From Oceanicoccus sp. KOV_DT_Chl (lineage in GTDB: Bacteria > Pseudomonadota > Gammaproteobacteria > Pseudomonadales > Dasaniaceae), in the NCBI RefSeq assembly GCF_900120175.1, contig NZ_FQLF01000001.1:124001-188000 (forward strand): a stretch of 64,000 nt of DNA, in the 5' to 3' direction. The position numbers were made by a program, and so were the translations under genes. The notes below the pieces were generated by a model. It was not told the DNA's origin and did not search any database. It saw only the letters and a list, made by a program, of their open reading frames with translations. Below, one piece after another: positions 5,887 to 58,811 of the stretch (within the stretch, counting starts at the first letter, position 1; every line of letters begins with the position of its first letter).

Positions 5887-7162
5887 TAACCAAGGATGAA
5901 ATCGTCTCGGTTGCAGATGAAACCGGTCTGACGCCTCATGTTGTTGAAAAAGATTATGTCCTTGGCTGGCTGTTGGCCGCCGTTAATGCCAACGACGTGC
6001 TTTCTCAGGCATGGGTTTTTAAGGGCGGCACCTGTTTAAAAAAATGTTATTTTGAAACCTATCGCTTTTCGGAAGATTTGGATTTTACCCTTAAGGACGA
6101 AAACCAAATTAACCAAGAGTTTTTATTAGAACAATTTGGCCTCATATCAGAATGGTTGTATGAAGAATCAGGTATTGAAATACCCATTGATCGGTTGGTT
6201 TTTGATGTCTATGAAAACCCTCGGGGCGTTTGTCTTGCGAGGGGCGCGTTTACTACAAAAGCCATTTTTCCAAGGGTAAGCACAACCTCCCCAAAATTAA
6301 GTTTGATCTGACGGCTGATGAAGTGTTGGTGTTACCACCATCACGGCAACCGGTTATTCATTCTTATTCTGATAGTCCGGAAGAGGGTATTCATATCGAG
6401 AGCTATTCGTATCCAGAGGTGTTTGGTGAAAAGGTGAGGGCGCTTGGTGAGCGTGGCAGGCCGAGAGATCTCTATGATGTTATTAATCTTTATCGAAATG
6501 ATCAACTGCCAGCTTCAGCAGTGATACAAGATGTGCTAGCACAAAAATGCGATTACAAAAACATTCAGCCTCCGGTGCTTGGAGACATGGACGCTTATAG
6601 AAATGTTTTAGAGCAAAACTGGGAACCCATGTTGGCGCATCAATTACCTTCACTGCCAGCCCTGGAGGTGTATTGGGATGCTTTGCCAGAATTTTTTGAA
6701 TGGCTTGCAGGTGAGGCCTCTGTAGATAGACCGCAACTAGCAGCGGTAACTCAAAGCGACATTGTTTACCGTCCGTCCTATGGACAATTGGGATTAAGAG
6801 CACTTAACGGACAGTCTTTAGAAATTATCCGTTTTGCGGCGGGCAACCATTTATGTGTTGACCTTGATTACACAGATAATAATGGAAACCGTAGAAGCCG
6901 AATTATAGAGCCTTATTCCCTGCGACGAGCAGGGACAGGGAACATCCTTCTCTATGCTCTTCGAGCCGATGGTGGCGGTATAAGGGCTTACAAGATTACA
7001 CAGATTAATAATGCTTCTGTGACTAACCAAGTTTTTGATCCCAAATACCAAATCGAATTGACCCCTTCCATGGGCGGCGATGCAGTTCCGTCGGCGGAAA
7101 GCACTGCTAATAGTCTTGGAATTCCGAGAATGACACGGGGACGTCGCAGACCTATTCACTGA
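5883..7162 (+). CDS. abiEii: AbiEii toxin with C-terminal WYL-like domain (one-base frameshift)
   Basis: Nucleotidyltransferase toxin of the type IV-like AbiE system. Frame 1 carries KGGTCLKK and FSEDLDFTL, the GS/DXD metal- and NTP-binding motifs. Frame 2 resumes at about 6230 with SCEGRVYY and the conserved EKVRALGERGRPRDLYDV. Adding one G to the GGGG run at 6223-6226 joins them into a protein of about 425 residues. AbiEii proteins usually end soon after the RDLYD region. Here a further segment at about residues 311-377 resembles a WYL ligand-binding domain: an IRFA start, a DYTDNNGNRRSRIIEPYSL-type strand pair, then LLYALRADGG. The fusion is in a single frame and is not created by the frameshift. 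The frameshift may be a sequencing artefact. Confidence 0.8.
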
Positions 7163-7407
7163 TAGAACGAGTAAGCCCAATTCAGGTCCGAAACTGGGAG
7201 TCATACGGATTGTCTCAACGAAGTTTTTTGCAGGGAGTTGATCACTGGCTTGTTGGGCTGCTGTATCCTAAATGTGCGGATAATGTGCGGGTTTCCTGGC
7301 AATAACTGGCATTTGCTGTCATTTACTGGCGATAAATTACACAGGGTGGCTGAGTAACTACCTGATTTATATGGGTTTAATATTCGGGTTTGATAATAAT
7401 AGATACT

Positions 7408-7574
7408 CTGGCAGTGTTGAGGTCAGCGGTTCGATCCCGCTAGGCTCCACCAAATTTAAACCTCGTATGTTCTTGAACTGCGAGGTTTTTTTAGTTTTTA
7501 AGCCTACTTTTCTTCACTTCTACCAAGTCCACAATACTACTGACTGTGGGAGAATTGTGGGAGCTCTTATACTG
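7408..7574 (+). repeat. Attachment-site direct repeat, copy 2 (contains tRNA-Ala 3' fragment)
   Basis: This 167-bp copy matches 1875-2042. It carries the tRNA-Ala 3' part (7408-7452, no 5' half, not a functional tRNA), the terminator, and the 3' end of the integrase gene in its natural context. It closes a 5.5-kb unit that starts at the tRNA. Upstream, between 7163 and 7407, I see no gene. Confidence 0.9.
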
Positions 7575-8144
7575 CGTGCCCCTAACCTTCGCCAATGTCA
7601 GCAATGGCTTGACCATATCTGCACAAGCTTTGTTGGACGAAGCAATTAAATTGCTGACCTCAGCCTGAGAGTAATACGTGGTCATACTGCCACTTGAGTG
7701 TCCTAATAAATCCTTTCTGTCTTCATGCGACACACCGGCGGCGCGTAATCGAGTGGCATAAGTATGCCGTAAATTATGCACGCCTTGGCGTATCATTTTA
7801 TCTTGGGGCAAGTGACTTGCTGCCCAAGCTTTTCTCCACGCTCTTGATCGCAAGTTTCGCAGTGGCTTGCCTCGGTAGCTGAAAACAAACTCGCCATGTT
7901 GGCCGCGAACGTCTTTTAATACCGTTTGTGCTGCATCGTTGGGGACTAAAATTCTATCCTGTTTGTTCTTGGTTAACTGTTTGGGTAAAACAAACAGAGA
8001 CCTATCATCAAGCTGAATTTCCCATTCCCAGCGCAGCTGGCAAACCTCCTGCTCTCTTGCACCACAGTTCACATCGAACAAACAGGCTTGTCGTAAATAG
8101 AGGGGGAGTCGGCTAGCAGATTCAATCACCTTCGTAGAAGCTGA
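7491..8144 (-). pseudogene. Tyrosine recombinase (site-specific integrase), N-terminally truncated
   Basis: The catalytic domain is present and complete: arginine I in CGAREQEV, HNLRHTYATRL with the H-x-x-R box, and LLGHSSGSMTTYYSQ with the final histidine and nucleophilic tyrosine. About 215 residues remain against the usual 320-420. The N-terminal SAM-like core-binding domain is missing because the open frame begins at a stop at 8145-8147. The first possible start is the GTG at 8129. The gene points toward the tRNA-derived repeat, as expected for an integrase at its own att site. Without the DNA-binding domain it is probably inactive. Confidence 0.85.
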
Positions 8145-8157
8145 TCAAGGTAAATTA

Positions 8158-8466: not shown

Positions 8467-8852
8467 ACAAGAATTGATTGGCCGCAATTTTGAGAAAATT
8501 ATTATTTCTCTCGATATTTGAAGCTCGATTTTATACGAAGCTTAGGTACTAAAATTAAGATTTTTTAAAATTTCGACTGCTTTAAACCTTTAAATTTACA
8601 GAATAATAGTCTGTTTTCAATGTGATATTAAGACAATACGATTTGGTTAAATATTTACTTAGAATTACGTATATTGAGCTTAAACAAATATCAACCTAGC
8701 AAGCAGAAATAATTTTCTGTTTCAGTTGAGATGATATCTATCAGTCCTGCCTTCCTTTTTTGAAAACGTTCCTCACGCTGTGAAACCTTTTTCGTAGCCG
8801 TTTCGACGCCAAATCTTTGATCATACTACCCATGGTTTAATCAAGCGGGGTT
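8467..8852. other. AT-rich stretch without a gene
   Basis: I see no gene, RNA or strong repeat in these 386 bases. The sequence is AT-rich and lies between two gene remnants, consistent with decayed mobile DNA. Confidence 0.5.
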
Positions 8853-9536: not shown

Positions 9537-11206
9537 CTATTCCTTCGGAGCACTTGAAACTGCTCCCTTCTCAATCGGGTCAGACTTTTTCAAAACCCAA
9601 AACACGTTACCACCTTTTCTATACGCACTGGCAGGACCAGCGTAACCGGAATTAAAAAAGAGCATGCCATTTGCAGCAACGACGCCGCCAGCATCCATCG
9701 CTCCTCCATGTGCCGTCATCCCATTTACGGTTTCCGTTTCTACAGTGGAATCAAATTTCCAAACTACCTCTCCTTTTTCCTTCGAAAAAGCATAGAGAAT
9801 TCCGTTTAGTCCAGGAGCCAAAATTGCGCCGGGAATACCTGTTATTGCTGCTGAAAAATGGACTTTGCATGCCTCTTTGTCGCTGCAATTCTCGCTGGCA
9901 GAAGAACTCCAAATTAGCTCTCCAGTTCTAAGATCGAGTCGATTTAGCCCAGGCTTACTTGTGTGGGAGGATTCATCACCTGAAAGAGGGACGGACGCAT
10001 CAGAAACTGGCACGTACAGATCTCGAGTGTCTGCCGCCATCCCCCAGTGAACGCCTCCTAACAACCCGCCTTTGCCAAGCTTGCGTTTCCACACTAGTTG
10101 ACCTTGATTATCCGGATCCAGAGCGTACGCTATTCCGGACTTGGCGCCAGCTAATACCCAGTCTTTCCCGTCAACGTCAGTAACGATAATCGGAGGCGCG
10201 CCAAAATCGAAGTCGTGGTTTTCAGCTGAAGGGCAATTAATTCCAAAAATTCCCAGTGGGCACGCTACGTTCCAGGCGTCCTTCGGCCATAATTTCTGCT
10301 TCCAGACGAGTCGCCCGGTTTCGATATCAATGGCAAGAATTGCGTTAGATAGATCAGTCATCGGCAGAGAATAATCCTGGCCAGTGCCTACATAGATTAG
10401 CCGTCGTTTTGTATCGATAGTGGGAGCGCTCCATATTGCGGCGCCGGCAGGACCATATTGCTTCCCGCCTAATACATTTCTTTTAACGAAGGTCGCTGGT
10501 TCTGTGACTGTGTAGGTCCTCCAGTTCTCCTTTCCCGACACAGCATTCAGAGAAACAAGCGACCCTCTAAATGTACAACAACCTCCCCAGGGATTGACTG
10601 CAATCCCAACTTCCTTTGAGGAGACTGGTATAAAGACATTCCCGCGTAATAGACAGGTGACCCGGTGATAACGGCCTGTTTGTGCGCTTCAACACGTTTT
10701 TCCCACAGCTTACGTCCGTTTATTGCATCGATCGCATAGACTGTGGCGTCGTCGTTCGCGACAAATACCACCGGAATTTCGCCGCCATTTACTTGTGCGA
10801 CCTTCGCTACAGTCACGGCGGCACGAATTGATGCGGTAGTCTGGAATTTCCAAAAGCCGCAACCGCTATTTGCATCGAGCGCAAATACCGCCCCCTCCTG
10901 ACTTCCAATGAAGACTGCTTGATCGGTAACCGCCGGAAGGGAACGTGGCTGATCCGCATCTTCAAAACCAAAAGCCCAGGCAACTTTCAAGGTTCGCAGA
11001 TCGTCTATGGATAATCCAGATTGACCAAAAGTGTAGGTACGCTGCTGAGATAGATCTCTACTCCACCCAGAACTCAGAATGGTCAAATCAGGCTGCAATG
11101 TATGACTGCAAGCTTGGTATTGAGTTTCTGCTAGCGCCTCTATTGACGAGAGGGCACTAATAATAAAAAAGATGATTGACGTTATCCGTTGACTGCAACA
11201 CGTCAT
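9537..11206 (-). CDS. PQQ-dependent beta-propeller dehydrogenase, polyvinyl-alcohol-dehydrogenase-like (one-base frameshift)
   Basis: A periplasmic alcohol dehydrogenase-like protein of about 556 residues. The ATG at 11206 has GGAGG upstream and begins a signal peptide (ISALSSIEALA). At least six propeller repeats are visible by their endings, for example ALDANSGCGFWKF, AIDAINGRKLWEK, AIDIETGRLVWKQ and AFSKEKGEVVWKF. Two frames are joined by adding one T to the TTT run (AAA at 10632-10634), giving a continuous SFIPVSSKEVGIAVNPWGG. No cytochrome c CXXCH motif is visible, so electrons would pass to a separate carrier. It stands alone on the minus strand between element remnants and an insertion sequence. 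Confidence 0.7.
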
Positions 11207-11544
11207 TATAGACCTCCGGTAGGATAGAGCTTTGTCGTTAGGATGTTGACCAAGACCCCGAGAATTCTGTAGCCGAGTTCGATACATTTTCCGTCGTCTG
11301 AATGCCATTCTCGGAACGATTGTTCGCGCGCTATCGGTTGCTGAACTAACACAAGACCCCGGCTCAATTCATTTACTGTTATCTAATGGCAGTGCAGCTT
11401 GGCTATAGTGTATGTCAATACGTCTATCGCAATAAGTCCATCATCGGAATTTCACTGTAGACAGTTGCGGATCAATGAAAGAGGAATCAATGAGTAGGGG
11501 GGGCACATCCCCACAATGGGTTCCATCCAGGCATCAGGCGGTGG
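11207..11544. other. Intergenic DNA upstream of the dehydrogenase
   Basis: Apart from the ribosome binding site of the minus-strand dehydrogenase at about 11213-11217, I see no gene. An open frame runs on upstream from the dehydrogenase start to 11308 but has no ribosome binding site of its own. The right edge is the left end of the insertion sequence. Confidence 0.4.
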
Positions 11545-12777
11545 TGTCTATGGCGAATTACTAATTTAAACCGTGAGGCGGCAGTCGGAAGCTGAAAAAA
11601 ACCCACGACAAAATGATTGCCAGCCATGGTTTTTCAACTCAGCTGGTCTTATTTCGGAATCTTTCACCGGTGTTTGGCCATTTTGAGACGTATAAACTCG
11701 ACATGGGTTGTAATAACGCTGGTATTCGCCAAGCTTTCTCTCAAGATCATTCGAGTTCCAGTAAAAAGTTTGGTCCAGAAGCTCTCGCCTAACGCTGCCA
11801 ATCAGTCGCTCTACAAAAGGGTGTGATATTGGGGTGTAGGGTACGGACTTTACTTCTTCAATATCTAAAATTCGTAAATTGGCCTGCCATCGCTGATATT
11901 TGAATAGTGGGTCGTTATCTGAACTGAGGTAAGTGGGAAGGTTGTTTTTGGACATAACTTCGTTGAATAAACGGCATAAGGTCACACCAACTACCGGCCC
12001 TGCATGAACACCAAAGCCTATAGTGCGTCGTGTGCATTGATCCATTACAACCAGCACCCAATGCCTTTTCAGTAATATTGATTCGCAGCGAAATAGATCA
12101 ATACTCCACAAACTGTCCTTGGTGTGGCCGAGCGTTGTCAGCCATGACGGTCCTTGATTCGTTGGATCGGGTTTATAGTGCTTTTCTAAAATTCGTCGAA
12201 CGATATCTTTATTAATGTCTAATCCAAAAGCTAAATTAATTTGTTGAGCAATTCGAGGGCATCCGTAACGAGGGTTACGCCGTTTCATTTCAATAATAAC
12301 TTTGATTAATTCTTGTGAAGGACCTTTGGGGTCAGTTTTGTTGTAGATTTTAGGTGAAAAAATAAAGTGGTATTTCTTTTTGATCAGTGCCCGGTGAAAT
12401 CGTTGTAGGGTAGAAGGCTTGATGATAATTGCCGCTCTTGCTAGCTTTCTGGGATTCAGCCATAGACTTAGCAAGCTCATCAGAATTCGATCGAGGTTGG
12501 TGAGAGCGGGTGAGTGTTTGCCTCTGCTGTTTTGAACTTGCAGCTGATGTTTGTGTAACAAGTTTTCAGCGACTAATGCTTTTGATGCACCGGATTTGCT
12601 AAGGGTAGTCAGAGCAACAAGCAGATCTAAAAATAAATATAGGAACAACTTGTACTGTTCTTTCGATTTGCCGATGGTTATGAACAGTCGTTCGTCCGTT
12701 CAATGAAGCTTCTCGTCTGTGTAGAACGGACATGTATGCTGAAGAACAGACAGCAAATATGACCGGATCGTTAGACA
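11545..12777 (-). mobile_element. Insertion sequence with rve-type DDE transposase
   Basis: The boundaries are tentative. The left end TGTCTATGGCGAATTACTAA is also found at the relict copy at 2253, which fixes that edge. The proposed right edge is TAGACA at 12772-12777, inverted relative to TGTCTA. No target-site duplication is evident. A perfect inverted repeat GTCCGTTC/GAACGGAC at 12694-12731 lies upstream of the transposase. Confidence 0.55.
11566..12648 (-). CDS. Transposase with integrase (rve) catalytic core
   Basis: A 360-residue DDE transposase. The N-terminal third is basic and helix-rich (ENLLHKHQLQVQNS and following), as in IS3/IS481-like DNA-binding regions. The retroviral-integrase core supplies the acidic triad in WSIDLFRCES, LSSDNDPLF and HPFVERLIGSVRRE. 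Unlike IS3 proper, one reading frame holds both parts and I see no separate orfA. The frame is intact, so the copy may still be active. Exact IS family not assigned. Confidence 0.85.
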   Translation of the reverse strand: MFLYLFLDLLVALTTLSKSGASKALVAENLLHKHQLQVQNSRGKHSPALTNLDRILMSLLSLWLNPRKLARAAIIIKPSTLQRFHRALIKKKYHFIFSPKIYNKTDPKGPSQELIKVIIEMKRRNPRYGCPRIAQQINLAFGLDINKDIVRRILEKHYKPDPTNQGPSWLTTLGHTKDSLWSIDLFRCESILLKRHWVLVVMDQCTRRTIGFGVHAGPVVGVTLCRLFNEVMSKNNLPTYLSSDNDPLFKYQRWQANLRILDIEEVKSVPYTPISHPFVERLIGSVRRELLDQTFYWNSNDLERKLGEYQRYYNPCRVYTSQNGQTPVKDSEIRPAELKNHGWQSFCRGFFSASDCRLTV

Positions 12778-19855: not shown

Positions 19856-20438
19856 TAATTTCTCCTCGTAAGTGGGGTTAGCGATCAATGCAAGTCGGTC
19901 GCGGTGTTGGGAGGTAGCTGCCTTCAGATGAATGGGCTCTAAATTACGCTTGATTCATTGTATTGATAAGAGAGCTGGAGCGGATGCTTTGTTTCCATAC
20001 AAAAACAATGGTGTGCAAACGGAAGGATAGTGATGGCCCCTTGCTTGTTTTTAATCATAATTATTTTGTCTGGCTTGGAGTGTGGCACCACGGGCGGCTA
20101 GAAATCTGCTACAGCGCTATTATTGGAAGCTATAATGCGGGGCATAGAGTGTTTGCTGTGTGCGATACGATAGCACCACTAAGCCACCGTTTAGACAATA
20201 TCTACGCCTGTATATTTACTATAATTGTTGGCAGTCAAGTCTTAGGGATTGGCTGTTATTTGGAGACAATGTAATTGCGAGTAGGTGCTTCTCTCCGTCT
20301 GCTATTTAATTTATATTTTTAGATTGGTTGTGGTGTGAGGGTCGTAGCTTATAGTGCCGGCATTTCACTAGACACTCAAACATATTCCCTAATAATCCGG
20401 AGTCCAACTATCATGCTACTGCCTGAAGACAATTATGG
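19856..20438. other. Intergenic region upstream of the sulfatase
   Basis: No convincing gene. An open frame at 19963-20274 has no ribosome binding site and no recognisable domain. The region contains the motif copy at 20267-20297 and should hold divergent promoters for the SDR and the sulfatase. Confidence 0.45.
20267..20297 (+). repeat. Conserved upstream motif, copy B
   Basis: Second copy of the motif at 18047-18077, sharing ACAATGTAA, the spacing, and AGTAGGTGCTT exactly. It lies about 140 bases upstream of the sulfatase start. It could be a regulator site or a 5' leader element. Confidence 0.55.
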
Positions 20439-22207
20439 ATGGGGCAGCTGCGTATCCGAATTTATACCGTGTTTCAGTTGTTGCTTTCTTTGCTGTTGTT
20501 CTCGTCAAATGTTTATGCCTCGTCGGCAGCCCCTAGTTTTTTAGTGATTGTTGCTGATGATATGGGGTGGTCGGATATTGGGGCATTCGGGAGTGAGATC
20601 CGCACTCCTGCTCTCGACGCTCTGGCTACCGGAGGCGTAACAATGACTAATTTTTATGTGGCTCCGACATGCTCGCCTACTCGCGCGATGCTAATGACGG
20701 GAGTGGATAGTCATCTTGCCGGTTTAGGCACTATGGACGGAGTGCAGGCCCCAAACCAACTCGGCTCCAGAAATTATGATGCCCAACTTCACCATGATGT
20801 GGTGACCATTGCTGAGGGATTAAAAACAGCGGGCTACGCTACACTAATGAGTGGTAAGTGGCATCTGGGAATTGACGAAAGCCAATACCCGAGCAATCGT
20901 GGTTTCGACCGTTCCTTCGCTTTATTAGAAGGTGGTGCCAGTCACTTCGGTGATGCTGATCCTCTGTACCGCGGAATAGAGGCCACTTATCTTGAGGACG
21001 GGTTAAGGGCTCCATTGCCAGAAGGGTTTTACTCCTCAATTGGCTATACCAATAAAATGTTGGACTATATTCGGGCAGTTGACGAAGATAAACCGATATT
21101 GGCTTATGTCGCATACACAGCGCCACACGATCCCTTGCAAGTACCGGATGATTGGTTGGATAAATATAAGGGCGTTTATGCTGAAGGTCCTGCGGTACTC
21201 CGGGCTCAAAGAGCTAAGCAGTTATCAGTGCTGGGCTTGGTAGACAGTGAGTTGGATCTCTGGACATCACCACAAATCCCCTCGTTCTTACCGGCCCATA
21301 TCAAGCCATGGCCTGAACTTAGTAGCGAAGAGCAGGCGCAAGCGAGCAGGCCAATGGAGATTTATGCGGCCATGATCGAGCTGATGGATCAACAAATACA
21401 ACGATTGATTGATGAGTTAGAGCGTAGCGGCCGTTTAGATAATACTTACGTAATTTTTTTATCGGACAACGGGCCAAATGGTGCTACGCCGTTGTCGTAC
21501 CCTAATAATACCCGTGAGTGGTTTTTGAATAATTATAACCATGAGCTGGATCAACAAGGTAAGCAAGATACTCATACTTATCTCGGCCGTGAGTGGGCAT
21601 CAGCAGCCGCAGCCCCGTTTAAGTTGTACAAAGGGGCTGTAGCTGAAGGCGGTATTCGCGCACCGCTGATAGTTATTGGCCCTTCTGTTGTGGCTAACAG
21701 CAAGTCAAGTCAGGTCGCACAAGTTACGGATCTACCAGCAACATTTTATGAGCTTGCCAGTATCAACCCCGAGACGGCACCTGCATTTGAGGGAAAGATA
21801 TTGCCCGAAGGTCGATCCTTGGTTCGCAATTGGCAAGACACCGATCTTGTCGAGTCGCGCTCTTTTGCAACCGAGCTCTTTGGTCAGCGTGCAGTGGTAT
21901 TTGATAACTGGAAAGCCACCAACTTTCAGCCGCCTTTGGGTCGTGGTAAGTGGGAGTTATATGATCTTTCGAAGGACCCGGTGAAATGAATGATTTGGCC
22001 GAGCAGTACCCTGAAAAACTTCAGGAGTTAATAGCGTTCTACCAAAGCTATCAAACGCGTGTAGGCGTGATCTCGCCAGAGCCACCAATTTCAATTTCAA
22101 TGGGGGATTTGTTTACAACCGAATGTAATTGGTTTTGTCAGATCATAGTTACAATTGTTGACATGCTACTTGAGATTTTCATAGTAATAGGGAATTTTCT
22201 AAATTGA
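20439..22207 (+). CDS. Type I arylsulfatase, secreted (one-base frameshift near the C-terminus)
   Basis: Hydrolyses sulfate esters in the periplasm. A signal peptide (residues 1-27) precedes VIVADDMGWSD with the metal-binding D40-D41. The formylglycine site reads CSPTRAMLMTG (C78, P80, R82), so the enzyme depends on a formylglycine-generating activity not encoded here. SDNGPNG supplies further metal ligands. The frame stops at 21989 after LSKDPVK. One extra G at 21980-21981 would continue it as DPGEMNDLAEQYP for about 75 more residues, ending with a hydrophobic helix, total about 589. It is followed closely by the DUF3604 gene. Removal of sulfate from a conjugated substrate is a likely role. 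Confidence 0.85.
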
Positions 22208-22221
22208 ACGAGGTGCGTCGG

Positions 22222-24122
22222 ATGAATTTATTTAGTGGATTGTTACCATCAATGATTACCAGAATAGCACTGTCAGGACTGTTAGCAGTGCTGGTTAGTT
22301 GTAGTCCGGTTGATGATCCCAGCTTGTACCCGGAGTTTGATCCAGAGACAGCAGTGCCTCCAACACCTAAGCCAATGGTGCCCGAAAATTCAAACCGTAA
22401 CTTATTTTGGGGGATACCCATATCCATACAAGTTTTTCTACTGATGCCTTTATCATGGGCGTGCGTACGCTGCCTGATGATGCTTATACTTTCGCTAAAG
22501 GTGGAGAAATTCAGCATGCGGCTGGCTATGGTATTCGTATTAAAACACCGTTGGATTTTGCCGCTGTAACTGATCATTCGGAATTTCTCGGTGCAATGCG
22601 TCGCTTAAAGCCTGACGTCCCCTTGTCGGCTCGCAGTTTACGTACGCGGTTGCTGAATGATAGCCCGCTCCGTAACACTCTTGCACTAGTACGCACTTTC
22701 ATTGGTTTCAAACCAGGCGATCTTGATGTTCCGAATGCTGATGGTATAGCACATGATGCTTGGCAGGAGATTATTGATGCTGCAGAGCGCCATAATGATC
22801 CAGGCCGCTTCACCAGTTTTATCGGTTACGAGTGGAGTGGCACTCCAGATAACCGTAATCTTCATCGTAATGTACTGTATCGCAGTTCGAAGGTCCCCGA
22901 TATCCCATACAGTTCTGTAGAGTCCAAAGATCCGCGGGATTTATGGACAGCGTTGGAGCAACAGCGCGAGCAAGGAATGCAGAACTTCGCTATTCCGCAT
23001 AATGGTAATCTCAGTGATGGACGAATGTATGACAGCGTTGCTTTTGATGGTACTCGTTTTGATGCAAGTTATGCTGAACGCCGCATGCGTAATGAGCCTC
23101 TTACAGAAATGTTTCAAATAAAAGGGTCCTCTGAAACTAATCCGTTACTGTCACCTGAAGATGAATTTGCTGGCTTTGAAATTTATGATAAGAAATTATT
23201 TACACTGGAGCCTGGCAAAGCGAAGGGCAGTTATATTCGTGATGCTTTGCGCTTAGGGATTGAGTTTTCTCACAACGAAGGTTTTAACCCTTACCGCTTT
23301 GGTGTGTTGGCTGGCACAGACAGCCATAATGCCAGTAGCCCGGTGGATGAAAATAATTATCACGGTAAGCTTCCGCTTCTTGATGGCAGTGCGGGTATCA
23401 GATTAAGTAAAAGCATATTAATACCAGAAGAACGGCGAATGGGGCAACAATGGAGCGCGCAAGGATTGTCTGCTGTATGGGCAGAAAATAATACACGGGC
23501 TTCGTTATTTGATGCAATGCTTCGTAAGGAAACCTATGCTACTTCCGGTCCTCGTATATCAGTACGCTTTTTCGGTGGTTGGCAATTTAGCGAGGCGGAT
23601 ATTCAGCAAGAAGACTTTATTGATATCGGCTATCGCAATGGTGTCCCTATGGGAGGTACTTTGCCTGCATCGACTGCAACAGCGCCAAGCTTTGCCGTTG
23701 TTGCATTGAAAGATCCAGAAAGTGGAAATCTCGATCGAGTTCAGATTATCAAAGGTTGGGTGGATGGCTCTGGTAAAAGTCATGAGCGGATCTATGATGT
23801 CGCACTCTCGGACAGCCGTAAAGTCGACCCGACTACTAACAAAGCGCCAGCCGTTGGTAATACTGTCAACGCTAAAGATGCAACTTACAGTAATTCGATT
23901 GGAGCTACACAACTTGCGGTTGTGTGGAAAGACCCGGACTTTGATCCAAAAAGTGAAGCATTCTACTACGCACGGGTAATTGAAATTCCTACGCCGCGAT
24001 GGTCAACTTTTGATGCCATTAAACTCGGTGTTGATGCGCCAGAGCCTGTTTCGATTCAGGAGCGCGCGGTGACTTCAGCTATCTGGTACGACCCACAAAA
24101 TGAAGGTGTAGCTACTAAATAA
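22222..24122 (+). CDS. DUF3604 lipoprotein (one-base frameshift)
   Basis: A DUF3604 (PHP-like metal-dependent fold) protein. The ATG at 22222 follows GAGGTG and begins a lipoprotein signal ending LVSC. The conserved start of the domain is WGDTHIHTS, with further metal-binding motifs AVTDHSEFLGA, GYEWSG, IPHNGNLS and GTDSHNASS. The N-terminal part and the domain are in different frames. One extra G in the GGGGG run at 22409-22413 gives a continuous NLFWGDTHIHTS and a protein of about 633 residues. It is directly downstream of the sulfatase and probably co-transcribed. Function is not established; genes of this type are often found beside sulfatases. Confidence 0.85.
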
Positions 24123-26363: not shown

Positions 26364-26371
26364 CGCTTTCA

Positions 26372-28662: not shown

Positions 28663-28698
28663 TGTAAGTTCCTTTTGTTGTTGAATAACTGAGAGAAA

Positions 28699-30032: not shown

Positions 30033-30509
30033 GATTTTCCTGAATAATTATTGTTATTGAACCGTAAAAATAACCGATATGCCTGTGGGCGATAAGCACT
30101 GTAATGAGCAAGCTATGTTTCCAATTGATTGTTAATTACTAGAAGTATTCAACATGATTTATAAATTAACGTCAGCAGCTGAGGGGCGAGCATCAAGGTG
30201 ACGAGATTGACCAAGACTTAATACGCATAAGTTTTTCAGTGTCAGAATGGGTAACAATAGAGGGGAAACATAATAAAAATTTTAGAAGGGGTAGTGTGGT
30301 TGGAGCTAAACAGAGTCAGATTTGGTTACTGCTAATGCATTCGTAGTAAGTTTTTGGCAGGTATAAAAAAAGGCCATAGAAAAATCTACAGCCTTGCCCA
30401 ATGAAACGATACCACTTAGATACCAGTTATAGGCCAACAGAGATTATGTAGTACATACCTCCGAGGAAACAGCATTTACAATGTCGATATGCCTATGTCT
30501 CAGAGCGAC
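30033..30509. other. Intergenic region holding a terminator
   Basis: Contains the minus-strand terminator at 30364-30394 and probably the promoter for the MFS-receptor unit. No gene seen. Confidence 0.5.
30364..30394 (-). terminator. Rho-independent terminator of the second receptor gene
   Basis: Read on the minus strand, AGGCTGTAG and CTATGGCCT pair over nine positions (two G-T), followed directly by seven T. It lies about 115 bases after the receptor stop. Confidence 0.75.
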
Positions 30510-39902: not shown

Positions 39903-40072
39903 AATAGACCCGAAAGTATTTAAGTTTATTGCATAGAATTAAGGTTTACATGAAAACTATGAAGTAATGACTGCTCAAGCGATGAATAGCTGGGACGTGT
40001 TGTCAGAGATTCGATTTTAGCTATGCAAACTCGTTAGTATATATCGTGAAAAAAACGAAGAGGAACACTATT

Positions 40073-48906: not shown

Positions 48907-50453
48907 CTAGCTATTGTTCTCACAGAGCGTTTTTCGAAGGTCAGCTTTTAATATTTTTCCCGCACCCGATATGGGTAGGGGTTCTTGCTGAAATGTTATG
49001 CTTCGTGGGCACTTAAAAGCGGATATTAATGTGCGGCAATGTTCAATAAGTTCAGCTTCCGCAAGTGTTTTTCCTTTTTCGAGCATCACTATTGCGTGTA
49101 CCTGCTCACCCCATTTTTCACTAGGTATGCCGATCACGGCACACTGTTCGACAGCAGGATGTTGATAGATGGCATTTTCTACCTCTATCGAATAAATATT
49201 TTCTCCTCCAGAGATTATCATGTCTTTTACCCTGTCGAGAATAAATAGAAAACCTTCTGCATCCAAGTAACCGCTGTCGCCAGTATGGAGCCAGCCTGTT
49301 TGTATTGTTGCTGCCGTTTGTTCAGATAAATTATAGTAGCCCAACATCACATTTGGCCCGCGCACACATATCTCTCCGACTTCATCTGCTGTAAGTACCT
49401 GATTATTTCCATCCATTATGACAAGGTCTATTCCAGGCATGGCGCGCCCAGCGGATTTTAATTTTCCCGAGAGAGGACCATCTAACACATGATATCTGGA
49501 TGCTAGACCGGTAATGAATGGAGCTGTTTCTGTTTGGCCGTAAGCTTGGAAAAACCGGGTGTGGGCAGCATTTCAAGAGCTTTGCTGATTACAGCTTCAG
49601 GCATGGGGGAGGCCCCATAGAGTATGTCGACAAGTGATGATAGATCGTATTTTTTAAAAGCTGGATTATGGACCAGCATATTAATCATTGTGGGTACTAA
49701 CATTGATTGCTCAATCTTAGCGCTTTCGACCGTTTGCATGAATTTTTCGGGATCAAAGCTGGCAATGAAGTGGTTTGACGCTGCAACCAGGGTTGATGCT
49801 AGGCACTGAGAAGTACATGCAATATGAAAAATTGGGGCGGCATGAAGGATGCGCTTGTTTGCCTTCAGGTTTAGAAAAGACGATGACTGCAATGAGTTGG
49901 CTACTAAGTTTTGGTGGCTTAACATGACACCCTTTGATCGACCGGTAGTACCGCCGGTGTAGTAAATGGCAGCCAAGTCATCATTGCTGCGACCTGCGTC
50001 ATCAACAACACCGTATTCGAGTAGCTGTGCATACTCGATATAGCCACTGGGTGCGTGTTCTTGTTCCATGTATATCAGCGTTTGCAAGTCTTTGAGCTGA
50101 GGTTGTAACAGTTTAACTCGATCGGCAAAGTTGTTGTCGACCAGTATTATTTTTGCTCCGGAGTCCTCAAGCCAATACGCTATTTCTGGGTCTGCCAGGC
50201 GACAGTTAATGGGTGTAATGACGCCGCCGGCCCAGGGAATGGCAAAGAGGTTTTCAAAGTAACGTTCACTATTATTGGCCAGAATAGCAACGCGATCTCC
50301 AGGTTTAAGTCCCTGTCTTTGGAGGCCTGCAGCGATACAAGCAATTCGTTTGCGTAGTTCGGTCCAGCTAGTCTCTCTGTCATCCATTGCGCAAGCAATG
50401 CCATTGGGATTAATCTGGGCTGCACGGTTTAAAATTTGAGTTAGCGAAAAAAT
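48907..50453 (-). CDS. AMP-dependent acyl-CoA ligase (one-base frameshift, possible ATT start)
   Basis: Activates a carboxylic acid to its CoA thioester. The reconstructed protein has about 515 residues. The phosphate-binding loop reads YYTGGTTGRSKGVMLSH, followed by AYGQTETAP, GWLHTGDSGYLD and DRVKDMIISGGENIYSIEVE, with the catalytic lysine in GAGKILKADLR. The frames meet near 49550-49556; one more base in AAAAACC (TTTTT or GG on the coding strand) restores PGFFQAYGQTE. The only good ribosome binding site, AGGAGG, lies six bases before an ATT at 50453, and a TTG eight codons upstream has none. An AtuH-like role is suggested by the cluster. Confidence 0.88.
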
Positions 50454-50524
50454 GGTCGGCCTCCTGATAATATACAATTTAAGCGCTTTGCATTAATAAT
50501 GAATAAGCAGTAGCTGGATTATTG

Positions 50525-52298: not shown

Positions 52299-52631
52299 CT
52301 AACTTAACAATTCATCTGGGACTTCCAGGGTCATATGCAGCAGTCCTAAGCCATGTGCTTTACCTTGTGCGTCAGTTAGTAAGGTCTCTGTGCCGCCTCC
52401 GCCGAGTGAATTGCTGAGTAAAAAATTCAAGGATTGGAGGTTAGGTAGCTCATAGCGCACGACTTCGCCAAGGCATATCTCGTTAAAAAAATCTTTGACC
52501 ACTGAGCTGGTTAATGTTTCTTGCAGAAAGTTATAGAGTGCAGGGGAGTTGGCCATGACCCCGATGTTACTGTCGTCGCCTTTGTCACCAGAGCGAGCAA
52601 TCGCAATATCCATCAATCTTACTTGTGCCAT
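52299..52631 (-). CDS. Small AtuA-related protein
   Basis: A 110-residue protein with LMDIAIARSGDKGDDSNIGV at the N-terminus and NSLGGGGTETLLTDAQGKAHG near the end. This is the ferredoxin-fold domain that is fused to the C-terminus of AtuA in Pseudomonas and encoded separately in many other bacteria. The start follows the AtuA stop by one base, and the AGGAG site lies inside the AtuA coding end, so translation is coupled. The function is unknown, although the family is required for growth on acyclic terpenes. Confidence 0.88.
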   Translation of the reverse strand: MAQVRLMDIAIARSGDKGDDSNIGVMANSPALYNFLQETLTSSVVKDFFNEICLGEVVRYELPNLQSLNFLLSNSLGGGGTETLLTDAQGKAHGLGLLHMTLEVPDELLS

Positions 52632-52632
52632 G

Positions 52633-54003
52633 TTAAATCTCCTTCACCGTAACCTGTGTGCTAACTTTGGTTTTATCAATTAGTGCTGGCCAGTAACCGA
52701 CAACCTCGGTAGCTCGTGCTCGCCCGCCTGCAAACCCTGTAATTCCTGGGGGGCCTGAAGTTAATAGTGGTGCGATTTCTGCGCCCAGAATATTTAGCTG
52801 ATCCCGGTTGTCTCCTTTAGCACCCACTCGCATCATGATTTCATGTGGTTGTTCGGCGGCAGGAACCAAGCCTTTGTAAAGCACGTTGGTGCCGAATAAT
52901 TCCAGGAAGCGGTCTTCTTCTGCGATCACCGCGCCATGCATTGCCATGCGTTCAAACACCATATCTGCCAGAACGTGCGCCTTCTCAATGGCATCGGGAC
53001 CTGCGATGCAGAGGGTGCTCAAAATTTTATAGCCGCTTGAATAGGACATGGAAACTTTGTAAGTGGGCGTTGGGGCATAGCCTTTTATGCCGGAAATGGA
53101 AACTCTGTTGGTGTCTTCCTGGGCGATTTCAATGCTGGTGAAATCAGCAATACAGTCGGGACCGAGGTAGTTTTTTGGATCGCCCAGTTCGTAAAGTAAT
53201 TGTGATGTGACGGTTTCGACTGAGACCAGTCCACCGGTATTTTCGTGTTTGGTCACTACAAAGCTGCCATCATCGCTAGCTTCGATGATGGGGTAGCCAA
53301 TACGCGCCATATCGGGAACATCGCGCCAATGGGTGAAGTTGCCGCCGGTGCACTGGGGGCCGCATTCAATGATATGGCCCATGATGGTGCCAGCAGCCAT
53401 TCTGTCATAGTCTTCCATGGACCAGCCGAACTCATGGATCAGTGGCGCGAGGACAAGCGATGGGTCGCTAGCGCGCCCAGTGATGACAATATCGGCTCCC
53501 TGATCTAAGGCGTCTGCGATGGGCTTGGCACCAATGTAAACATTAGCGCTGCTGATGCGGTCGCGAATTTGATCAAGATTATCGCCGGTTTCAAGGTTAT
53601 TAAATAACTCTCCGGATTTTATGAGCTCGGGGAGTGTGTCGAGGATATCATCGCCTTCAACGATACCAACACGGATGCCCGTAAGCCCGAGATCGGTGAT
53701 TACTTTTTCAATAGCCTGAAGGCAGGCCTTTGGGTTTACGCCTGCAGCGTTGGCGATTACTTTGATACCCTTTTGCTGGCAAGTGGGCAAAATCCTGGCG
53801 AGCATGGTAATAAAATCCAGTGCATATCCTGCTTCCGGGTTGCGCATTTTTTGTTTTTGCATGATGCTCATGGTGATCTCAGCTAGATAGTCAAAAGTCA
53901 GATAATCTACTGGACCTTCTTCTACCAAGCGGATTGGCCCAAGCAAGCTGTCTCCCCAAAAGCCTTGTGCATTGGCAACACGCACCATCTTTTTGTTGTT
54001 CAC
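52633..54003 (-). CDS. atuA: AtuA family protein (DUF1446)
   Basis: A 456-residue DUF1446 protein. Conserved stretches include ANAQGFWGDS near the start, DYLAEITMSIMQKQK, VIANAAGVNPKACLQAI, DIVITGRASDPSLVLAPLIH and ECGPQCTGGNFTHW. AtuA is the marker of acyclic terpene utilisation clusters (citronellol and geraniol breakdown); its biochemical step is not established. A GTG start at 54003 has AGGAG upstream. The C-terminal domain of the Pseudomonas protein is a separate gene here. Confidence 0.93.
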   Translation of the reverse strand: MNNKKMVRVANAQGFWGDSLLGPIRLVEEGPVDYLTFDYLAEITMSIMQKQKMRNPEAGYALDFITMLARILPTCQQKGIKVIANAAGVNPKACLQAIEKVITDLGLTGIRVGIVEGDDILDTLPELIKSGELFNNLETGDNLDQIRDRISSANVYIGAKPIADALDQGADIVITGRASDPSLVLAPLIHEFGWSMEDYDRMAAGTIMGHIIECGPQCTGGNFTHWRDVPDMARIGYPIIEASDDGSFVVTKHENTGGLVSVETVTSQLLYELGDPKNYLGPDCIADFTSIEIAQEDTNRVSISGIKGYAPTPTYKVSMSYSSGYKILSTLCIAGPDAIEKAHVLADMVFERMAMHGAVIAEEDRFLELFGTNVLYKGLVPAAEQPHEIMMRVGAKGDNRDQLNILGAEIAPLLTSGPPGITGFAGGRARATEVVGYWPALIDKTKVSTQVTVKEI

Positions 54004-54038
54004 TCTTTTCTCCTGTTGTGATGTTTGGCTAGACGTTT

Positions 54039-54821
54039 TTATGTCCAGTTGGGTGGGCGTTTTTCAAGAAAGGCGCTGAGACCTTCCCGGCCTTCATCGG
54101 TATGGCGAATGTCAGCGATGAAGCTCACGGTGTCTTTAATCATTGACTCGGTGATATCGCCAGCAGCCACATCAAAGATAATTTGTTTGGCTTTTTGCAT
54201 GCCTGTTGGGGCATTTTTAAGGAGTGATTCCACAATCGTGTCGACGGTAACATCGAGATCATCAGCAGAAACAACTTCACTCAGTAAGCCTATCGCCAAC
54301 GCTTTTTCAGCGCTGATAACTTCTGCAGTAGTAAAAAATCTGCGGGCAGCTCTAGTACCGATAGCCCGGACAACATAAGGCGCAATAGTGGCAGGTGCCA
54401 TGCCTACTTTGACTTCACTAAGTGCAAAGCGGGCGTTCGGTGTACCGATTGCGATGTCGCAGCAGCTGACAAGACCTACGGCGCCTCCAAAGGTAGCGCC
54501 TTGCACTCTGGCAACAGTTGGTTTGGTCAGGAAGTTGAGGGTCTTCATCAGTCGCGCTAACTGTGCGGCGTCAGCCAGGTTTTCTTCGTAGCTGTTGCTG
54601 CTCATTCGTTTCATGTAGTTAAGATCGCCGCCGGCAGAGAAGCTTTTCCCGCTACTGGCAAGCACGACGACGCGCACTGCCGGGTCGTCATTGGCCCGAT
54701 CAAGAGCCTCAATCAGGCGTATTGCTTGATGGTCGTCGAAGGCGTTGTGTACTTCGGGTCGATTCATCGTGAGTCGTAGCACTCCATTGGGTGAGAGTTC
54801 GACCGCTAATTGAGTAGGCAT
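54039..54821 (-). CDS. Enoyl-CoA hydratase/isomerase (AtuE/LiuC-like)
   Basis: A 260-residue crotonase-fold protein. The oxyanion-hole loops are seen as SSGKSFSAGGDLNYMKRM and QGATFGGAVGLVSCCDI; the EVKVGMAPATIAPYV segment carries the first catalytic-position glutamate. In the atu pathway the equivalent enzyme hydrates isohexenyl-glutaconyl-CoA after carboxylation. AAGGA precedes the ATG. It is the first gene of the minus-strand unit and divergent from the carboxylase genes. Confidence 0.92.
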   Translation of the reverse strand: MPTQLAVELSPNGVLRLTMNRPEVHNAFDDHQAIRLIEALDRANDDPAVRVVVLASSGKSFSAGGDLNYMKRMSSNSYEENLADAAQLARLMKTLNFLTKPTVARVQGATFGGAVGLVSCCDIAIGTPNARFALSEVKVGMAPATIAPYVVRAIGTRAARRFFTTAEVISAEKALAIGLLSEVVSADDLDVTVDTIVESLLKNAPTGMQKAKQIIFDVAAGDITESMIKDTVSFIADIRHTDEGREGLSAFLEKRPPNWT

Positions 54822-55032
54822 GGCTGATCCTTTTGAAGAAATGTCAGTACATTTAAATGTTAAGTGTGAGTGGAGCCTAGCTCTGTCAAATTAGCCAATA
54901 GCTTATTATGTTGGACTCAGTTTATATGGGGTAGTTTTTCTGTCAAGCTTGGGAGTGTGGTTTTCGATTTAAGGGGTTGATAAGATTAAAATATAAGTTA
55001 TTGATTTTATTAAATTAATATATTTTTTACAA

Positions 55033-55071
55033 AAATATGAGTTATTTTTTATGTAAAAATAATTCATATTT
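55033..55071. repeat. 17-bp inverted repeat, AT-rich hairpin
   Basis: AAATATGAGTTATTTTT (55033-55049) and AAAAATAATTCATATTT (55055-55071) pair with one mismatch (G-T in RNA) around a five-base loop. It lies within the divergent promoter region. Confidence 0.6.
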
Positions 55072-55072
55072 G

Positions 55073-55087
55073 TTGAGTTTGACTCAA
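55073..55087. promoter_or_regulatory. Candidate TetR-type operator
   Basis: TTGAGTTTGACTCAA is an inverted repeat with 6-bp arms and a 3-base centre, directly after the larger hairpin and 130 bases before the carboxylase start. Size and position suit a TetR-family operator; the match to the regulator is unproven. Confidence 0.4.
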
Positions 55088-55217
55088 AATAACAATATAT
55101 TGCGCATTCAGATGCCGTATTTGGTAGCAGAGTGATCGTCGTTGAGGCGCTGTGGTTTGGTTTTGCGGTCTGTGTCCGCAAGGTTCTTGTCAGGTAGTTG
55201 GTTAGCATGATGAATGT

Positions 55218-56702
55218 ATGAGTATGGATAAGCTGTTTTCGAAAGTATTGATTGCCAACAGGGGGGAGATTGCCCTCCGGGTGTTGAGCTGTTTGCAGAA
55301 AATGAATATCGCCTCTGTGGTGGTTTTCCATGATAGTGACAGGAATTCTCCAGTTGTCCGCCAGGCTGATGAAGCGGTAGAGATTACTGGGGAGTCGCCG
55401 TCGGCAGCCTATTTGGATATTGCTCAAATAGTTGATATTTGCCAGAGCTTTGGTGTTGATGCGGTGCATCCTTGTTACGGCTTTCTCGCGGAAAATGCCG
55501 AATTTGCTAGAGCGCTAGAGGCTGCGGGAGTCTGTTTTATTGGTCCGTCGCCCGAAGTCATTGAGCTAATGGGAGATAAGATTCGATCTCGTGAGTTTGT
55601 TGTCGAGCATGGTTTTCCTGTTGCTCCTTCTGTTGTGATGGATGCTGACGAGCCGGGCTTTCTGGATGCGGTTTCCCATATGGGTCTGCCGCTAGTGGTT
55701 AAAGCATCTGCTGGTGGTGGTGGCAAGGGCATGAGTATTGTCAGGTCCCTCGATGAGCTGTCCAGTACATTAAAAGTTGCAGCGTCTGAGGCCGAAAAAT
55801 ATTTTGGCGATAAGCGCGTGTACGTCGAGCGTTATTTTGATAGCGCCAGACATATTGAAGTGCAGATATTGGGCGATGGAAAGCGTGTTATTCACTTGGG
55901 GGAGCGCGAGTGTTCTGTGCAGCGCCGCTTTCAAAAAATCATAGAGGAGTCACCTTCACCTGCGTTGGATGAGGCCTACCGTGAAAGTCTTTGTGAAGTG
56001 GCTGTCGGCATTGCACAAGCTGCAAATTACAGTAGTGCAGGAACAGTAGAGTTTTTATATACCCCGGAAGGCGAATTTTTCTTTCTGGAAATGAATACTC
56101 GTATTCAAGTCGAGCATGCCGTCACTGAAATGGTGACAGGTATTGATTTAGTTGCTGAGCAAATTCGAATCGCTTCAGGTCAGGGGCTTGGTGTTAGTCA
56201 AGACAAAATAAGCCTCCATGGGCATTCTATTGAATGCCGTATTTGTGCTGAGGATACTTACGATAACTTTTTGCCTGAGACGGGTAAGGTTCTTTATTTA
56301 CAAGAGCCAAGTGGCAAGGGTGTACGTTTCGATAGTGGTCTGTATCAAAATCAGTTAGTCACTACAGCCTATGACCCGATGTTAGCCAAGCTCGTTGTGC
56401 ATGCTTCTTCACGTGAAAAAGCTATTGAGAAGGCCATTAAAGCGCTGCAAGAATTCGTATTGCTTGGTGTAAAAGTTAATACTGATTTTCTAGTGCAGGT
56501 ACTGTCACATGACGCATTTGTGAGTGGAGAATTCGATACTAATTTTATTACTAAATACGCTGAATACTTAACCGCTAGGGAGGCAACGCCTGATGAGCGT
56601 GTTGCGTTGTTATCTGCTGTTGTGCTCGCGGATAGGGCTATAAAAACGATGATGGAGAAAACGCCGGCCCCCTATGGAGCTATTGGATGTTGGAGAAATT
56701 AG
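55218..56702 (+). CDS. Biotin carboxylase subunit of an acyl-CoA carboxylase
   Basis: Carboxylates biotin with ATP and bicarbonate. The 494-residue protein has the three ATP-grasp parts: KVLIANRGEIALRV, the glycine-rich KASAGGGGKGMSIV, and catalytic FLEMNTRIQVEHAVTEM. It ends GAIGCWRN, the point where the fused alpha subunits of methylcrotonyl- and geranyl-CoA carboxylases (about 660 residues) continue into the biotin carrier. Here a TAG stop follows and the carrier is a separate gene one base later. The ribosome binding site is weak at both candidate ATGs (55218 and 55224). Confidence 0.93.
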   Translation: MSMDKLFSKVLIANRGEIALRVLSCLQKMNIASVVVFHDSDRNSPVVRQADEAVEITGESPSAAYLDIAQIVDICQSFGVDAVHPCYGFLAENAEFARALEAAGVCFIGPSPEVIELMGDKIRSREFVVEHGFPVAPSVVMDADEPGFLDAVSHMGLPLVVKASAGGGGKGMSIVRSLDELSSTLKVAASEAEKYFGDKRVYVERYFDSARHIEVQILGDGKRVIHLGERECSVQRRFQKIIEESPSPALDEAYRESLCEVAVGIAQAANYSSAGTVEFLYTPEGEFFFLEMNTRIQVEHAVTEMVTGIDLVAEQIRIASGQGLGVSQDKISLHGHSIECRICAEDTYDNFLPETGKVLYLQEPSGKGVRFDSGLYQNQLVTTAYDPMLAKLVVHASSREKAIEKAIKALQEFVLLGVKVNTDFLVQVLSHDAFVSGEFDTNFITKYAEYLTAREATPDERVALLSAVVLADRAIKTMMEKTPAPYGAIGCWRN

Positions 56703-56703
56703 T

Positions 56704-57210
56704 ATGCAGCCAAAATATATTTTGAATGGCGTCACGCATACAGCTGCACCTGTTCGAGTAGCAGATGAAATTACGCTGAATATTGATAGCCACTTAGTAT
56801 CTGTCCGTATAGAGAAACTTGGTTTACACCACTATGAATTATTTTTAAATGGTGTTCATTATCCATGCTATGTGGCACAGGATGGCGAGAATATTTTTAT
56901 TCATATGCATGGCAAGAGTTGGTCACTTGAGTTGGCTAGTGAGTTTTCTTCAGCGGGATCTGGTGAAAATGTTGGTGGAGGTGTAGTGCGTGCACCGATG
57001 CCTGGTGTTGTAGTTGATGTTTATGTCGCTAATGGTGATCAGGTTGTTGAAGGTCAAAGTCTCATGTTGATTGAAAGTATGAAGTTGCAGACAGAAGTCA
57101 AAGCAGCTATCTCTGGCATTGTTGATCAAGTAAATGTTGAGAGTGGTAATACATTTGAAAAATCCTCTGTTTTAGCATTAATTGCGGTTGCTGAGGGTGA
57201 ATTAGCATGA
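56704..57210 (+). CDS. Biotin carboxyl carrier subunit
   Basis: A 168-residue protein with a C-terminal biotinyl domain; the biotinylated lysine lies in LIESMKLQTEVKA, and VRAPMPGVVVDV opens the domain. The N-terminal 90 residues are a beta-rich linker like that of methylcrotonyl-CoA carboxylase alpha. ATG at 56704 has GGAG eight bases upstream, inside the end of the carboxylase gene, which supports a real separate start. The stop overlaps the next ATG (ATGA). The open frame begins ten codons earlier but without a site. Confidence 0.88.
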   Translation: MQPKYILNGVTHTAAPVRVADEITLNIDSHLVSVRIEKLGLHHYELFLNGVHYPCYVAQDGENIFIHMHGKSWSLELASEFSSAGSGENVGGGVVRAPMPGVVVDVYVANGDQVVEGQSLMLIESMKLQTEVKAAISGIVDQVNVESGNTFEKSSVLALIAVAEGELA

Positions 57211-58811
57211 GAAAAATTGCATCGAAACTGAATACTCACTCAGATGAGTTTAAGCAGTACAGCACGCACAATAAAAAAATACTGAGCGAGTTTTATGAGC
57301 GGCAGGATGCTGCTAGAAATAAGCGCCCTGATAAAGACATTCAGCGCTTGCTGCGGGATAAGAAAATGCTGCCCCGAGAGCGATTAGAGCTGTTGCTTGA
57401 CCCTGGTACACCTTTTTTGGAATTTTCTTCATTGGCTGCGAACTGTGCTTATGATGGAGAGGCGCCTTCGGCGAGCTGTATTACTGGTTTAGGTATTGTC
57501 AGTGGTAGGGAAGTGGTTATCCATGCTGGTGACGCTAGTGTGAAGGGAGGAGCCTGGTATCCCTTAACAGTAAAAAAAATTGTACGGGCTTTAGATATTG
57601 CCATTGAAAATAAACTGCCGGTTATCCATTTGTGTGATAGTGCGGGCGGTTTTTTACCACTGCAATCCCAGTTATTTGGTGACAGTAATATGGCTGGGAG
57701 AATATTTCGTAATCAGGCCATTTTGTCAAAAATGGGATGCAAACAATTATCGCTAGTTTTTGGCCACTGCACTGCGGGCGGTGCTTATATCCCGGGGTTA
57801 TCTGATTACTCGGTGATTGTTGAAGGAACAGGTGCAGTTTTTCTAGGTGGTCCGCCACTGGTAAAAGCGGCAACCGGAGAAGATGTCAGTGTTGCTGAAC
57901 TTGGTGGCGCAGCTATGCATACATCTGTCAGCGGTACTTGTGATTATTATGCCAAGACTGAGCGCGAAGCTATAGCTATTGGTCGTGAAGTTGTATCCCA
58001 GTGGGATGCGCCAAAAAAGTGGGCCTGCCAGCGTGATACGCCTGAGGCGCCTTACTACGATCCAGCAGAGCTTTACGGGATTATCCCCGACAACATAAAA
58101 AAACAATTTGATATTAAAGAAGTTATTGCCCGGATGGTGGATGGCAGTCGCTTTCATGAATATCAGCCTGATTATGGTGAAACCCTGGTTTGTGGTTTTG
58201 CAAATATCTGGGGCTATAAAGTTGGCATCCTTGGTAATAACGGAGTTTTGTTGAACGAGAGCTCTCTTAAAGCCGCGCATTTTATGCAGCTGTGTAATCA
58301 AAACCATACGCCTTTAGTTTTTTTGCAAAACATTACGGGCTATATGATTGGCAAAGAATACGAGCAGCGGGCATCACTAAGGATGGTGCCAAGATGATCA
58401 TGGTACAGGCCTGTTCTGACGTGCCTAAATTTACGGTTATGACTAATGGCTCATTCGGTGCGGGTAACTACGGTATGTGCGGTCGTGCATTTGATGCGCG
58501 CTTTACGTTTAGTTGGCCCAATAGTCAGATCTCGGTTATGGGGCCGACCAAGCGGCAAACACACTTGTTACGATCAAGCTCGCGCAGTTAGCTCGGGAGG
58601 GCGTGAGCCTTCTGCTGAAGAGATTGAGCACATTCGTAGCCAAATTACTGACGACTTTATTCATCAAAGTAGTGCCTATTATGCAACATCTGAAATTTGG
58701 GATGACGGCATCATTGACCCTGTGGCTACTCGTAATGCGTTGGGAATGTCGATAGCCGCATCATTGAATGCGCCGATAGCTGACGGTCGATATGGCGTCT
58801 TAAGGCTGTAG
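57207..58811 (+). CDS. atuC: Acyl-CoA carboxylase carboxyltransferase subunit (AtuC/LiuB-like), three one-base frameshifts
   Basis: Transfers the carboxyl from biotin to a branched enoyl-CoA. The reconstructed protein has about 535 residues, the usual length. Landmarks are [51 protein letters not shown] and [15 protein letters not shown]. The frame is broken three times, each repaired by one base: G in GGG at 58369-58371 ([17 protein letters not shown]), C in CC at 58548-58549 ([19 protein letters not shown]), and G in GGG at 58599-58601 ([18 protein letters not shown]). The protein then ends [10 protein letters not shown]. The ATG overlaps the carrier stop. Geranyl- versus methylcrotonyl-CoA preference cannot be decided. 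Confidence 0.85.

Follow-up and report, generated by a model that had tools for sequence, protein, structure and literature searches.

Within the genome of Oceanicoccus sp. KOV_DT_Chl, a stretch of 64,000 nucleotides (contig C1, positions 124001-188000; hereafter the window) carries ten genes, from an AbiEii-like gene to a carboxyltransferase gene, each of which is split between open pieces lying in different reading frames. The question raised by this locus is whether these genes are decaying in the bacterium or whether bases have been lost from the deposited sequence. Almost certainly, the genes are broken by residual single-base losses in the assembly and would be intact in the living bacterium. 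The twelve frame changes, their common direction, their recurrence on other contigs, the breaks in genes expected to be essential, and the preference for G/C runs are established. The genome (G000) comprises 4,825,034 bases in 7 contigs and is rated 99.96% complete and 1.42% contaminated; G001, G003, and G004, which belong to the same genus, served as control genomes.

Frame changes in the window

The first-pass annotation of the window had claimed twelve frame changes in ten genes, with one base missing at each site. All twelve changes are present, and the frames of the flanking open pieces place 12/12 in the missing-base direction. By frames alone, one missing base is indistinguishable from two extra bases; at 10632, 21980, 49550, and 58369, homologues aligned without gaps define the shift as minus one. 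The sites, in window coordinates, are the following.

6215-6308, plus strand: site 6223, AbiEii-like gene; pieces 5883-6308 and 6215-7159, missing-base direction
10550-10688, minus strand: site 10632, PQQ-dehydrogenase-like gene; pieces 10550-11368 and 9540-10688, one base missing
21965-21986, plus strand: site 21980, in the tail of a sulfatase gene; pieces 20427-21986 and 21965-22204, one base missing
22401-22566, plus strand: site 22409, DUF3604 gene, near its probable start; pieces 22174-22566 and 22401-24119, missing-base direction, the weakest of the twelve
27913-28060, minus strand: site 28024, first TonB receptor; pieces 27913-28698 and 26375-28060, missing-base direction
29148-29214, minus strand: site 29153, MFS transporter; pieces 29148-30047 and 28702-29214, missing-base direction
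30833-30932, minus strand: site 30898, second TonB receptor; pieces 30833-32848 and 30513-30932, missing-base direction
40780-40840, plus strand: site 40781, HsaA-like flavin monooxygenase; pieces 39986-40840 and 40780-41277, missing-base direction
49506-49572, minus strand: site 49550, acyl-CoA ligase; pieces 49506-50492 and 48910-49572, one base missing
58365-58370, plus strand: site 58369, first change in the carboxyltransferase gene 57207-58808; one base missing
58540-58549, plus strand: site 58548, second change in the carboxyltransferase gene; one base missing
58599-58605, plus strand: site 58599, third change in the carboxyltransferase gene; one base missing, after which the original frame is back

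Alignment to intact homologues, which had been proposed as a check, bears out nine of the twelve sites, across which homologues keep a single reading frame. Spanning homologues are not necessarily orthologues; those found are unbroken at these sites, the nearest relatives matching only ~65-70% at the DNA level. A single DNA search with 9 kb gave matches in five of six same-genus genomes, with 65-69% identity over the longer matches and higher identity confined to short stretches. In the acyl-CoA ligase, the AMP-binding profile is divided between the pieces (3-312 and 313-384) and all 24 ligase loci span the break. Site 29153 is spanned by 10 homologues among 24 MFS loci, and the family match of the downstream MFS piece is marginal (E 0.084). 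The first TonB receptor has its Plug domain on one piece and its barrel on the other, with both sides present in 8 of the 17 homologues matching there; in the second receptor, the barrel profile is split over the pieces (25-360 and 357-436), and 8/15 homologues have both sides. At 21980, where the tail is short, 3/26 homologues match on both sides, while 10632 is spanned by one homologue, L116, which places the break at ~10642 or ~10653.

The Pfam profile of the carboxyltransferase is likewise found on separate pieces (7-350 and 348-410). Within a collection of named genomes, the closest carboxyltransferase, 80% identical in the best segment of a search that may omit the window's own genome, is that of L012, from a Pseudomonadales metagenome-assembled genome. 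Residues 376-388, 389-446, 447-467, and 466-534 of this intact protein match the window in frames 0, 2, 1, and 0, respectively, with no residue lost in between. A minus-strand event of the missing type at window position 58367 was excluded, as it is antisense to the carboxyltransferase.

Sites 6223 and 40781 are supported by complementary halves of known families. In the AbiEii-like gene, the two pieces, searched apart, match positions 1-50 and 90-230 of the 238 positions of profile PF08843; the homologue search returned no matching homologue. In the HsaA-like monooxygenase, the N and M domains of the acyl-CoA dehydrogenase family lie on one side and the C-terminal domain on the other, and residues 12-202 and 211-374 of chain 7f70_A are matched by the two pieces. 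Site 22409 would be a frame change within one broken gene if, as its lipoprotein-like character suggests, the upstream piece is the start of the DUF3604 gene. The downstream piece covers positions 8-591 of the 591 of the DUF3604 profile; the upstream piece has no DUF3604 match, and no homologue was matched here in the homologue search.

In the neighbourhood of site 6223 (window 5095-7162), an AbiEi-like open reading frame (ORF; 5095-5886), identified by reading and not by domain scan, adjoins the AbiEii-like gene. The downstream AbiEii piece has an unusual-looking, borderline WYL match (PF13280, 21.8 bits, exactly the cut-off).

A domain scan of 30 further window ORFs, one of them a carboxyltransferase piece, and inspection of same-strand neighbours revealed no convincing thirteenth break, close relatives covering the window incompletely. 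A candidate at 55218-57207, between the genes for biotin carboxylase and its carrier, was dismissed as a natural boundary, since the L012 homologue (499 aa) stops at the same place.

Frame changes across the genome and in its relatives

The G000 sample consisted of 42 stretches of 20 kb plus the window, in total 904 kb (19% of the genome) from contigs C1, C2, and C5, with C3, C4, C6, and C7 left out; part of the stretches was picked around essential clusters, so that the sample is non-random. The control samples amounted to 840 kb for G001 and 480 kb for G003 and G004 together. Proteins of other genomes were aligned to these sequences, and adjacent matches in differing frames were counted. In the strict count, at least 40% identity was required on both sides of the break and G000 proteins were excluded as queries. 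A home-made hidden Markov model of coding sequence with frame-change states was dropped in favour of this homology-based count, because it mistook gene boundaries in operons for frame changes.

By the strict count, G000 has 24 missing-base events and one extra-base event in 176.5 kb of covered conserved coding sequence (p = 1.5e-6 for the bias; outside the window 21 versus 1, p = 1.1e-5). G001 has none in 93.4 kb, and G003 and G004 together have one missing and two extra in 114.8 kb; the difference in rate between G000 and these same-genus controls is significant (p = 2.8e-6). In this partly chosen sample of G000, a frame change is detected about once in every 7 kb of conserved coding sequence. 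The strict events outside the window sit on C2 and C5. Other lesions are few, namely, beside the one extra-base event, two adjacent internal-stop hits in G000 and three stop hits in G003 and G004.

Missing-base changes are found in the G000 genes rpsD, murF, ftsQ, and rsmH of the ribosomal and cell-wall clusters, each of which is one open frame in G001. The breaks lie at L081 ~461 for rpsD and at L273 ~13908, ~5313, and ~18752 for murF, ftsQ, and rsmH, respectively. The names are NCBIfam matches of the G001 proteins; the ftsQ match is below the model cut-off (110.9 of 366 bits), and this name is taken also from the position beside ftsA and ftsZ. The genes rpsD, murF, and ftsQ are indispensable in known bacteria; rsmH is not known as an indispensable gene. 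The murF profile is matched in G000 by two side-by-side pieces (profile positions 1-139 and 134-418), and the profile search found no intact MurF, its five further matches, which are read as other Mur-type ligases, scoring no higher than 159.1 bits, where the cut-off is 288.6; for rpsD and ftsQ, second copies were not searched for. The rpoB match lies inside a whole 1380-codon frame in G000. Also broken in G000, in comparison with the proteins of relatives, are leuC (twice) and bioA-, ubiX-, and sppA-type genes, and ORFs of 100 aa or more average 317 aa in G000 versus 346 and 361 aa in comparison genomes.

In raw form, the comparison of these clusters gave seven events in G000, one of them of the extra type with a minus-strand ORF as query (L081 7082), two in G001, and six in G003 and G004. 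Three of the eight control events came from the broken G000 rpsD as query and three from minus-strand ORFs read as antisense. The remaining two (L278 1564 and L280 1877) are both among the three strict events of G003 and G004, the third of which, L279 11357, is an antisense-query event that was kept in the reported count.

The choice of queries was varied. With the G003 and G004 panel only, G000 has 9 missing in 84.9 kb and G001 none in 81.8 kb. With the homologue loci fetched for window genes (ligase, MFS, and others) as the only queries, three events were obtained in 21.4 kb of G000 and none in 22.5 and 22.4 kb of the other samples. A pass in which G000 proteins were allowed as queries gave 22 raw events in 209.8 kb of G000, 4 in 220.4 kb of G001, and 1 in 120.8 kb of G003 and G004; one G001 event and the sole G003/G004 event were due to broken G000 ORFs serving as queries, and the count was redone without G000 queries. 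Missing-type changes of G001, which is a single contig, were seen only with G000 queries, at L109 ~4341 and ~4649 and at L115 ~6880. These three may be real errors, in which case G001 may suffer from such losses too, though less often.

Since nine of the twelve window sites were missed, their homologues lacking or too distant, and only 3/12 were recovered, the strict count evidently overlooks real sites. In the laxest count, G000 has 40 missing and 3 extra in 302.5 kb. From this count, eight weak events, in which one side or both had low identity (L081 17571; L083 3876; L085 11886; L089 583, 2587, and 16469; L095 11272; L125 14155), were left unused, as were L083 5733 and L122 11682.

G/C runs and the origin of the losses

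The window positions were those of the first-pass annotation and had been picked with runs in mind, while the outside positions came from protein alignments blind to runs; the outside set is therefore the fair test of sequence context. It comprises 21 sites, namely, the 21 strict missing events outside the window minus L136 13607, where the break is poorly placed, plus L092 14831; for the latter and for L094 13614, only approximate positions are available. A G/C run of at least four within 8 bases is found at 11/21 outside sites (p = 3.5e-10) and 5/12 window sites (p = 1e-4), compared with 4.5% of 20,000 random coding positions. A/T runs of at least four within the same distance are not in excess (3/21 outside and 3/12 in the window versus 16.9%). 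The losses thus favour G/C runs over homopolymers in general, which refines the first-pass claim that they lie in homopolymers. Taken by itself, the wording of that claim, a run of 2-5 identical bases, hardly discriminates, because ~82% of random coding positions lie within 8 bases of a G/C run of at least two. The ratio of G/C runs of five to runs of four is 0.185 in G000, 0.236 in G001, and 0.222 in G003 and G004.

If region or genome were decaying through single-base deletions, the broken genes would be real pseudogenes. Several window genes are of catabolic or transport types, which cells can lose, and integrase- and transposase-like ORFs are present in the window. Yet the expected-essential rpsD, murF, and ftsQ are hit alike, and the middle segment of the carboxyltransferase is 88% identical to an intact homologue despite three losses in ~230 bases. 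Decay had been expected in the first-pass annotation to give mixed lesions; the lesions of G000 are one-sided, with 24 missing, 1 extra, and 2 adjacent stop hits. Because expected-essential genes are also broken, with murF found only as two pieces, the sequence would be at fault and not the genes, and decay is highly improbable. Programmed ribosomal frameshifting, pervasive at the G/C runs of this one species, would likewise leave the deposited sequence right, the genes being decoded by slippage. It would accommodate both the gathering of losses at G/C runs and the involvement of expected-essential genes; the same genes are, however, in one frame in same-genus relatives, and 17/33 sites have no G/C run of at least four within 8 bases. 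Moreover, such runs (~3,300 per Mb) far outnumber the detected changes (~140 per Mb of covered coding sequence), so that a G/C run alone does not shift the frame. The probability of this explanation is vanishingly small. A milder variant may be a DNA modification, outside the two methylase families considered below, through which G/C runs are basecalled too short.

Modification of a motif, for instance CCCGGG, could disturb nanopore basecalling and thereby cause part of the losses. The motif CCCGG was proposed in the first-pass annotation from the window sites themselves, three of the twelve being said to lie at it; 3/12 are found within 12 bases, but only 2/12 within 8 bases. Within 8 bases, CCCGG or CCGGG occurs at 6/33 sites versus 2.1 expected given the G/C runs (p = 0.016), to which the outside set contributes 4/21 (p = 0.044 alone) and the window 2/12 (p = 0.16 alone). 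Nanopore errors tied to a motif have been described at Dcm sites (PMC6591954) and for other modifications (PMC10687267). On the other hand, the motif is absent within 8 bases at 27/33 sites, and CCCGGG is not specially depleted in G000, its observed/expected ratio of 0.82 lying between those of G001 (0.67) and of G003 and G004 (0.87). The two methylase families searched, PF00145 and PF01555, have no match in G000; they match 10 and 11 of 14 control genomes, respectively. Any effect of CCCGG would be minor and its link to the losses is weak, which leaves the motif a slim chance of a share in them.

Residual single-base losses in the assembly, as proposed in the first-pass annotation, are thus supported by the window, by contigs C2 and C5, by the essential genes, and by the small number of frame changes in same-genus genomes. 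The assembly consensus, which is most likely based on long reads, would drop single bases, often in short G or C runs, and the basecaller or the consensus step would under-call run lengths. A nanopore-like long-read platform is suggested by the 7 contigs for 4.8 Mb and by the type of error. Comparable cases are described in the literature. Nanopore calling is poorer for longer runs of C and G than for those of A and T, with lengths tending to be underestimated (PMC8486125); consensus indels in homopolymers often frameshift gene calls, and a high-quality tier is reachable despite many frameshifts (PMC9262707); in one nanopore draft, deletions are commonest at runs of four to five (PMC12007338). 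G000 resembles such assemblies (PMC9262707, PMC8486125, PMC12007338) in its single-base deletions, often at short homopolymers, in its many broken genes, and in being otherwise near complete with few contigs. With the errors at Dcm sites (PMC6591954) and those described for Modpolish (PMC10687267), it would share systematic consensus errors tied to sequence context; unlike in these modification-linked cases, no fixed motif covers most sites and the two methylase families searched are unmatched in G000, and the Modpolish case concerns mismatches rather than homopolymer indels.

Several observations weigh against losses in the assembly. Nine other C1 stretches have no strict event, a laxer count giving one (L122). 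With the G001 panel only, G000 has two extra events beside 18 missing in 132.2 kb (G003 and G004: 1 missing and 2 extra in 108.2 kb), and three of the four raw events of G001 in the pass with G000 queries are of the missing type, the fourth being an artefact. A break in the str-operon fusA (EF-G), once taken as decisive evidence, had to be dropped, as an intact second fusA-like gene is present. At 7/33 sites, the G/C runs within 8 bases reach a length of just 2, so that runs fail to explain every site, and in the ratio of G/C runs of six to runs of five, G000 (0.155) does not fall below G001 (0.153) or G003 and G004 (0.131). Finally, homopolymer errors in one published nanopore draft were about twice as frequent at A/T runs as at G/C runs (PMC12007338); since G000, whose platform is deduced from its assembly, has the opposite preference, platform and basecaller are uncertain.

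Still, the frame changes are an ordinary sequencing artefact with a G/C-run signature and not biology. Frame-level gene calls, pseudogene counts, and pathway statements for G000 are consequently untrustworthy. The completeness of 99.96% alongside about one change per 7 kb of conserved coding sequence in the sample means that the completeness score hides the problem. The direction ratio together with the G/C-run test could be used as a quick check of similar assemblies.

Further genes in the window and on C5

The intact second EF-G-like gene of G000 lies at C5:242761-245645 (L182), and a neighbouring ORF is read as EF-Tu. In the window, a tRNA-Ala (1844-1919), a tyrosine integrase-like ORF (7494-8129), and a transposase-like ORF (11569-12648), whose match to the IS481 model is below the cut-off, are found between 1844 and 12648, which is possibly a small mobile region. 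A steroid-degradation-like set extends over 13651-43249 and includes KshA, the HsaA-like gene, a BphC-like dioxygenase, a DmpG-like aldolase, an acetaldehyde dehydrogenase, and a 3-beta-HSD-like gene. At 52302-60016, AtuA and AtuA ferredoxin-like genes are located beside those of the biotin carboxylase, the carrier, and the carboxyltransferase, and this region looks like one for the breakdown of acyclic terpenes or branched acyl-CoA.

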